From NCBI GenBank assembly GCA_016213945.1, contig JACQZF010000025.1, positions 1 to 38,682 on the forward strand: a DNA stretch of 38,682 nt, read 5' to 3'. The position numbers were made by a program, and so were the translations under genes. Numbering within the stretch: the stretch's first letter is position 1; each line of letters begins with the position of its first letter. Positions 4,445 to 25,787 of the stretch are shown piece after piece. Source of the stretch: Nitrospirota bacterium (GTDB lineage Bacteria; Nitrospirota; Thermodesulfovibrionia; UBA6902). The notes under the pieces were generated by a model. That model searched no databases and was not told where the DNA came from. It saw nothing but the letters and a program-made list of their open reading frames with translations.

Positions 4445-4591
4445 AGTGGTACATGTCACACTTCTGTGCCAACGTGCCCATGTGCAAAATAGTTTCTTAG
4501 CCCTTTCAAATATATCAGACTAATTCAATCTGCACATATAACCTCTTGTTTTCACAATTACAATTAGTATTCCAGCTTTTTCCTAATCCTC

Positions 4592-4607
4592 TGGCATATA
4601 GCTTGCA
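4592..4607 (+). promoter_or_regulatory. Sigma-54 (-24/-12) promoter
   Basis: TGGCATATAGCTTGCA matches the sigma-54 consensus TGGCAY-N5-TTGCW with exact GG-N10-GC spacing. The predicted transcript starts near 4618, just ahead of the strong AGGAGG at 4624-4629 for the small Cys protein. Two sigma-54 activators are encoded later in the window, and published work on PEP-CTERM systems describes sigma-54 control of such genes. Confidence 0.8.
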
Positions 4608-4632
4608 TTTACCTGCCTAATAAAGGAGGTAT

Positions 4633-4881
4633 ATGTTGAATCTAATTACAAACAAGACACGCTGTCCATTTATTTATGAGCCCTTTGATGATTGCTACTG
4701 CGCAAAGATGAATAGCCAGGACATAGAACGAGCGGTGTATCTATGTTCCAATAATTTTGAAATGTGCGATATTTATAAAAATGGTAATGGTAACGGTAAT
4801 GGCAACGGTAAAAAAACAATAAGAACAGAGTCTATAAATATTCGAATCTCTCAAAAAATAATTTCTGATAAGAAAGACTGA
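4633..4881 (+). CDS. Small Cys-rich protein with (Asn-Gly)5 tract, unrecognised
   Basis: An 82-residue protein I do not recognise. It has five cysteines (11, 21, 23, 38, 45) spaced C-x9-C-x-C-x14-C-x6-C, a pattern that could bind a metal or FeS centre. A perfect (Asn-Gly)5 tract follows at 50-59, encoded by five 6-base units (4780-4809), and then a basic tail. There is no signal peptide or membrane helix. AGGAGG lies only 3 bases before the ATG, so the next codon TTG could also serve as start. It sits directly behind the sigma-54 promoter and 28 bases before the PEP-CTERM gene, so the two are probably co-transcribed. Function unknown; a small cytoplasmic regulator or redox protein is possible. 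Confidence 0.7.
   Translation: MLNLITNKTRCPFIYEPFDDCYCAKMNSQDIERAVYLCSNNFEMCDIYKNGNGNGNGNGKKTIRTESINIRISQKIISDKKD
4780..4809 (+). repeat. Hexanucleotide tandem repeat (AAYGGY)5 inside the small Cys protein
   Basis: Five consecutive AAT/AAC-GGT/GGC units encode Asn-Gly pairs. Because the unit is 6 bases, slippage changes tract length without shifting the frame. Confidence 0.85.
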
Positions 4882-4909
4882 TATTGCATTTTTAAGCAAG
4901 GAAAAGAGA

Positions 4910-5398
4910 ATGATAAAGAAAATATTGTTAATTATCTGCATTACATTAATAGCATTGACAAATAACTTAAATGCGTCAACCTGTCCCACATGCCCCGGTA
5001 CAGGACCATATACGACAGATAGTTACGGTACACAGAATACAGAATTCGCTCCAGACGAGACCCCGTATCTGTACTGGAAACTCCCGTCGAGCAACATTAG
5101 CTATATATTATCTTGGTGGACACTTGAAGGGACTAATACGTTTTATTCTAAAGAGTTGCTTAACACAAGCGGTTCAGATGAAATCAGGCTTATCTTAGAT
5201 AACTGGGATTCCATTAACCCAAAAGAAGGCAACTGGATCGTAAACGCGTTCTATTCAGCACCCGGAGAAAACACCAGTTGTGCAACAAGCTTCACGGTTA
5301 CTCCCGAACCAATCAGTTCAGTGCTGTTTATATCCGGTGGGGCGGTCTTTGTAATCAAACGCAGTTTAAAACGCAGGAAGAAGATAAATCTCTCCTGA
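4910..5398 (+). CDS. PEP-CTERM sorting domain protein, exported
   Basis: A 162-residue secreted protein. Residues 1-22 form a signal peptide (basic MIKK start, hydrophobic core, Asn-Ala-Ser end). The mature part has a CPTCPG motif and aromatic-rich beta-type sequence resembling no family I know. The C-terminus is a tripartite PEP-CTERM signal: Pro-Glu-Pro at 132-134, a hydrophobic segment at about 137-149, and a basic cluster at 150-158. Such proteins are normally processed by an exosortase and displayed or released with exopolysaccharide; no exosortase is present here. The start has AAGGAAAAG upstream. With the preceding Cys protein it probably forms a sigma-54 dependent two-gene operon. The sorting-signal call is good; the function is unknown. 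Confidence 0.8.
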   Translation: MIKKILLIICITLIALTNNLNASTCPTCPGTGPYTTDSYGTQNTEFAPDETPYLYWKLPSSNISYILSWWTLEGTNTFYSKELLNTSGSDEIRLILDNWDSINPKEGNWIVNAFYSAPGENTSCATSFTVTPEPISSVLFISGGAVFVIKRSLKRRKKINLS

Positions 5399-25760: not shown

Positions 25761-25772
25761 GCCTGCTAAACA

Positions 25773-25787
25773 GCAAGTAGCGTGCCA
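25773..25787 (-). promoter_or_regulatory. Sigma-54 promoter of the TPR-kinase-regulator operon
   Basis: On the minus strand TGGCACGCTACTTGC matches the consensus perfectly (TGGCAC-N5-TTGC, GG-N10-GC). The predicted +1 is at about 25761, essentially at the annotated ATG (25760), so the mRNA would be leaderless or start at the internal ATG of codon 11. Confidence 0.85.

Follow-up and report, generated by a model that had tools for sequence, protein, structure and literature searches.

A small cysteine protein behind a predicted sigma-54 promoter and its lineage-specific pairing with PEP-CTERM proteins in Nitrospirota

The DNA analysed here, referred to as the window, is a stretch of 38,682 nucleotides from a Nitrospirota bacterium (Thermodesulfovibrionia, UBA6902). 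It contains a gene for a small cysteine protein, here called CysA, a gene for a secreted PEP-CTERM-type protein, and a set of predicted promoter elements upstream of both:

4450-4486, + strand: putative enhancer-like upstream activator site (UAS), TACATGTCACACTTCTGTGCCA plus ACGTGCCCATGTGCA
4539-4551, + strand: IHF-like site TAACCTCTTGTTT (YAANNNNTTGATW, one mismatch)
4592-4607, + strand: predicted sigma-54 -24/-12 promoter, TGGCATATAGCTTGCA, an exact consensus match
4625-4629: GGAGG ahead of the CysA ORF
4633-4881, + strand: CysA, small cysteine protein of 82 aa (translation; alignment of 66 members; dN/dS)
4780-4809, + strand: Asn-Gly (NG) tract of CysA, residues 50-59, five NG
4910-5398, + strand: secreted PEP-CTERM-type protein of 162 aa (translation; TIGR02595 11.5 bits, sub-threshold)

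The initial annotation described an 82-residue protein with five cysteines, and the cysteines of CysA (C11, C21, C23, C38 and C45) indeed follow the pattern C-x9-C-x-C-x14-C-x6-C exactly. Across the family this motif holds only in part: C11, C21, S28, C38 and C45 are invariant in 66 of 66 aligned members, whereas the third cysteine, C23, is nearly invariant and dispensable, so that the invariant cysteine set comprises C11, C21, C38 and C45. The core of CysA is under strong purifying selection, with a dN/dS of ~0.04 between the two closest species; this value and the existence of paralogues rule out a spurious or non-coding ORF. The Asn-Gly tract varies in length as first proposed, with five NG repeats in the window and eight in the closest relative. 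It is encoded by GGTAAY-type hexamer repeats, and species differ by whole units, which suggests slippage. The CysA orthologues of five genera without a PEP-CTERM neighbour (L004, L006-L012 and L024) share a conserved -[ST]x[ST]C-like tail, in which the cysteine is the last residue; this tail is absent from the window's genus.

CysA remained unrecognised in every family library searched (Pfam, NCBIfam and PDB). Pfam and NCBIfam contain no family for it and gave nothing consistent across the 66 members, and no significant profile or sequence match to known zinc-finger or Fe–S families was found in Pfam, NCBIfam or PDB. The PDB search returned chance antibody chains alone, with no convincing match. 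A known zinc-finger family was considered on the basis of a weak PCFS4 match (E 0.26) and rejected, the match not being common to the family. The structure model, of modest confidence (pLDDT 63.6, core 70-90), shows ~45 residues packed into a compact core; Foldseek searches with it matched no solved fold, and literature searches yielded no description of the family. The protein is nevertheless conserved in relatives, a question raised by the initial annotation: it is present in 46 of 101 relatives, often as several paralogues, and a profile search found the family in 48 of 396 Nitrospirota genomes. Beyond this phylum, the search consisted of one pattern-based scan of the genome collection, of a type returning close relatives, and it retrieved Nitrospirota/Thermodesulfovibrionia records. 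The family has so far been seen only in Nitrospirota, the sole phylum scanned genome by genome.

The gene 28 bp downstream of the cysA ORF encodes a protein with a signal peptide and, at about 5300-5395, a VTPEP motif, a hydrophobic stretch and RRKK. Its earlier designation as an exosortase substrate is borne out by the signal peptide and the PEP-hydrophobic-basic C-terminus, but not by TIGR02595, against which it scores 11.5 bits with a cut-off of 16 (a near-identical orthologue reaches 15.6); the PEP-CTERM assignment is therefore motif-based. The window genome encodes one exosortase, identified as exosortase W, and ~15 other PEP-CTERM genes above the TIGR02595 cut-off. Signal peptide, PEP motif, hydrophobic stretch, basic tail and a genomic exosortase are all present, as in the PEP-CTERM/exosortase system described elsewhere. 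The PEP-CTERM gene has a dN/dS of ~0.18 between the two closest species, compared with the far lower value for the CysA core.

The promoter-like sequence TGGCATATAGCTTGCA is one of two exact sigma-54 matches in the window and contains the GG-N10-GC element. The consensus sigma-54 promoter noted at the outset recurs, with at most one mismatch, upstream of 27 of 27 CysA orthologues (0.1 expected in shuffles), and a chance match at 4592-4607 is ruled out by this conservation. Further upstream, aligned regions define a UAS consensus consisting of a palindromic GACATGNCACANNNNTGTGNCA followed by NNRTGYCYNTGTGCA. It occurs with at most two mismatches in 23 of 27 orthologues (0.0 in shuffles), about 118-143 bp from the -24 element. 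Moderate evidence supports an IHF-like site, TAACCNNTTGATT, which is found with at most one mismatch in 19 of 27 orthologues, compared with 6.6 in shuffles, and usually lies 49-53 bp from the -24 element. The UAS-promoter spacings cluster near 107, 116, 128 and 140 bp, which is suggestive of helical phasing, although not strongly enough to claim it. NtrC-type promoters have a distal palindromic enhancer, an IHF site between, and a -24/-12 element. The cysA promoter shares this layout, with a palindromic enhancer-like site, an IHF-like site and a -24/-12 element, and differs in its UAS sequence and target set. The predicted arrangement is that of a textbook enhancer-activated promoter, and at the sequence level the case for sigma-54 regulation of cysA is strong.

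In the window's taxonomic family, CysA is normally encoded directly downstream of its own kinase and regulator, the usual order being HslV-HslU-histidine kinase-sigma-54 response regulator-[UAS/sigma-54]-CysA. The kinase carries three PAS domains; the regulator combines receiver, PAS, AAA+ and Fis domains. The window genome departs from this order: cysA is detached from the pair and adjoins an EF-G gene, and the kinase orthologue (72% identical) is on another contig, C70, with the regulator beside it; there, HslU and the kinase are separated by a PEP-CTERM gene. Because the pair is unlinked from cysA in this genome, we infer that control there is exerted in trans. Kinase and small cysteine protein are jointly missing in four genomes (G014, G018, G019 and G028), which favours a common circuit; against it, a CysA-like gene persists in two others (G010 and G024) that lack a kinase orthologue. 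Of 77 family genes, 44 have a sigma-54 activator gene immediately upstream, compared with 7.5% of positions drawn at random from the same loci. Judged by gene order, the most conserved partner of CysA is this upstream two-component pair and not the PEP-CTERM gene. A similar CP..C..YC..CPFY stretch occurs fused N-terminal to a receiver domain in a gene adjoining a family member (L048:2171-2737).

With at most one mismatch allowed, the UAS occurs at three sites in the whole window genome, ahead of cysA, a CysA paralogue (contig C91) and a PEP-CTERM gene (C80), and a sigma-54-like element follows each of them. Across 38 genomes there are 31 such sites, compared with 0 for a reversed-pattern control. 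The majority front small-cysteine-protein genes and a few have no evident target; other sites lie ahead of a PEP-CTERM gene (L138) and of a gene that reads from its sequence as a glycosyltransferase (L144).

Control of PEP-CTERM genes by sigma-54 has been described for Proteobacteria via PrsK/PrsR, a regulatory system with a PEP-CTERM box and a sigma-54 promoter (Haft et al. 2006, PMC1569441), and pepA is RpoN-dependent (PMC9850573). The initial annotation had proposed looking for exosortase and PrsK/PrsR genes elsewhere in the genome; alongside exosortase W, a PrsK and a PrsK/PrsR-like pair were found. The latter is the putative CysA circuit, which resembles PrsK-PrsR in having a tandem histidine kinase and sigma-54 response regulator, and an activator site plus a -24/-12 promoter ahead of PEP-CTERM genes. 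Its regulator scores 355.2 bits against PrsR (orthologue in L082; TIGR02915, cut-off 502.6), the activator at L044 scores 356.5 bits, and the kinase on C70, which is built of PAS domains, scores 45 bits against PrsK (TIGR02916, cut-off 300). The activator sites also differ, that of the CysA circuit being GACATGNCACANNNNTGTGNCA ~140 bp upstream and that of PrsK-PrsR a 17-nt motif ending TTTACA ~63 nt upstream. Unlike in PrsK-PrsR, the main target appears to be a small cysteine protein. Canonical PrsR/PrsK control of cysA was rejected on the sub-threshold scores and the different activator site; the circuit is predicted to work like PrsK/PrsR, although neither its scores nor its activator motif place it in that system. 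It is a sequence-distinct parallel in Nitrospirota, whose most conserved output is a small cysteine protein missing from standard libraries. The one gene of the window genome over the TIGR02916 cut-off, a canonical PrsK (G000:C74:7838-9844, 528 bits) with a PEP-CTERM gene upstream of it, coexists with the CysA-circuit pair.

By a strict motif test, 12 of 63 unfused family members are followed directly by a PEP-CTERM gene, and ~3 further neighbours are cut, extended or divergent, giving a total of about 15. Behind CysA itself, such genes are confined to two genera, one of them the window's own. Since the majority of CysA orthologues lack a PEP-CTERM neighbour, PEP-CTERM is ruled out as an obligatory partner. 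The proteins encoded downstream are of several unrelated kinds, differing among species. In a subfamily designated CysB, three genera show a 4-nt overlap between the small gene and that of its PEP-CTERM partner, which usually belongs to a single type. In three genomes from a different family (G038, G043 and G045), Cys domain, linker, signal peptide and PEP-CTERM region are encoded as one protein, which is of the same PEP-CTERM type as the CysB partner and keeps four cysteines. In one fusion protein (L042), the linker to the signal peptide is a tract resembling the NG tract. The fused gene is directly behind a sigma-54 activator gene; a sigma-54-like site is present and the UAS of CysA is absent, so the regulator in that lineage must read another site. 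Such a putatively cytoplasmic cysteine mini-protein, as partner or N-terminal fusion, sets these loci apart from the PEP-CTERM/exosortase system as described, and was not found in the literature searched.

Genes of a further subfamily, CysC, have a sigma-54 activator on one side and STAS and sigma-70 genes on the other, without PEP-CTERM. In the window genome, an unrelated 79-aa cysteine-rich protein with no family match occupies the corresponding place between a sigma-54 activator and STAS/sigma-70 genes (L163:1006-1242, G000:C35). Class-wide family members at L206 and L207 adjoin genes that read as CheW-like and chemoreceptor-like, one of them behind a sigma-54 activator. Since many members occur in sigma-54, STAS/sigma-factor and chemotaxis operons without PEP-CTERM, the pairing, though strong, is lineage-specific. 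The functional link first proposed is upheld by the ~15 adjacent cases, the 4-nt overlaps and the three fusions; as for adjacency in relatives, PEP-CTERM neighbours do occur in several genera, but not beside most CysA orthologues. Given that the link to PEP-CTERM is not universal and that so many family genes follow an activator gene, the family is best seen as a signalling-associated cysteine mini-protein, coupled to PEP-CTERM in several lineages.

We consider it about an even bet (probability roughly 0.5) that CysA has a two-component system of its own, that it is the chief sigma-54-dependent output of this system, and that it acts as a cytoplasmic regulator or adaptor. A signal received by the three-PAS kinase would be passed to the receiver-PAS-AAA+-Fis activator, the probable ligand of the palindromic UAS ~140 bp upstream. 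DNA bending, probably by IHF, would follow, and sigma-54 polymerase would then transcribe cysA and any PEP-CTERM gene directly behind it. Two further genes, for the CysA paralogue and for another PEP-CTERM protein, are probably activated in trans by this regulator. CysA itself is most likely a cytoplasmic regulator that binds metal and is deployed together with exosortase substrates, the four invariant cysteines and the gene context suggesting metal binding, and the cysteine pattern and context pointing to an adaptor. It would most likely tune the signalling module, or else both the synthesis and the export of the co-induced exosortase substrates. The sequences directly show the promoter architecture, the conservation, the gene order, the regulon sites and the recurrent pairing and fusion; the identity of the UAS-binding regulator, the part played by IHF, metal binding and the adaptor role are proposed.

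Gene overlaps and naturally occurring fusions suggest that exosortase substrates have a partner in the cytoplasm. More tentatively, this so far undescribed family of cytoplasmic Cys domains may truly belong to the exosortase pathway of Nitrospirota. Its members would be partners that sense metal or redox state, either in trans or as an N-terminal domain that can be cleaved off, and would link the production and export of PEP-CTERM proteins to a dedicated two-component/sigma-54 circuit. As the family adjoins a two-component regulator and is repeatedly paired or fused with PEP-CTERM proteins, it may be an overlooked part of surface-protein control in these bacteria.

We find it doubtful that CysA is only a sigma-54 signalling mini-protein behind whose suitable promoter PEP-CTERM genes have landed, the proteins being uncoupled. 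This would accommodate the species-dependent PEP-CTERM type behind CysA, the many family members lacking such neighbours, and the precedent for sigma-54 control of PEP-CTERM genes (PMC1569441). However, CysB is followed in several genera by one recurring PEP-CTERM type, with the genes overlapping, and a fusion to this type exists in another family; a shared promoter alone requires none of this. Those same overlaps and N-terminal fusions, with the four cysteines kept, could instead reflect a dedicated export helper that binds its partner preprotein in the cytoplasm, in cis if fused, and is removed together with the signal peptide. We regard this as unlikely, given the lack of a PEP-CTERM neighbour for most CysA orthologues, the unrelated kinds of protein behind CysA, and the association of CysC and class-wide members with STAS, sigma-70, CheW or MCP genes. 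A leader peptide or attenuator acting in cis on the PEP-CTERM gene is suggested by the short ORF 28 bp ahead of a structural gene in the window, but is very improbable for a family with multiple paralogues and fusions whose amino-acid sequence is under strong purifying selection and which is conserved even at loci without a PEP-CTERM gene downstream.

With a precise activator site and a small regulon, the two-component circuit and the proposed partner of the exosortase substrates are both directly testable. The second exact sigma-54 site of the window (25772-25787, - strand) is ~12 bp ahead of an 810-aa ORF, in the vicinity of a flagellar gene cluster and of two genes for sigma-54 activators.
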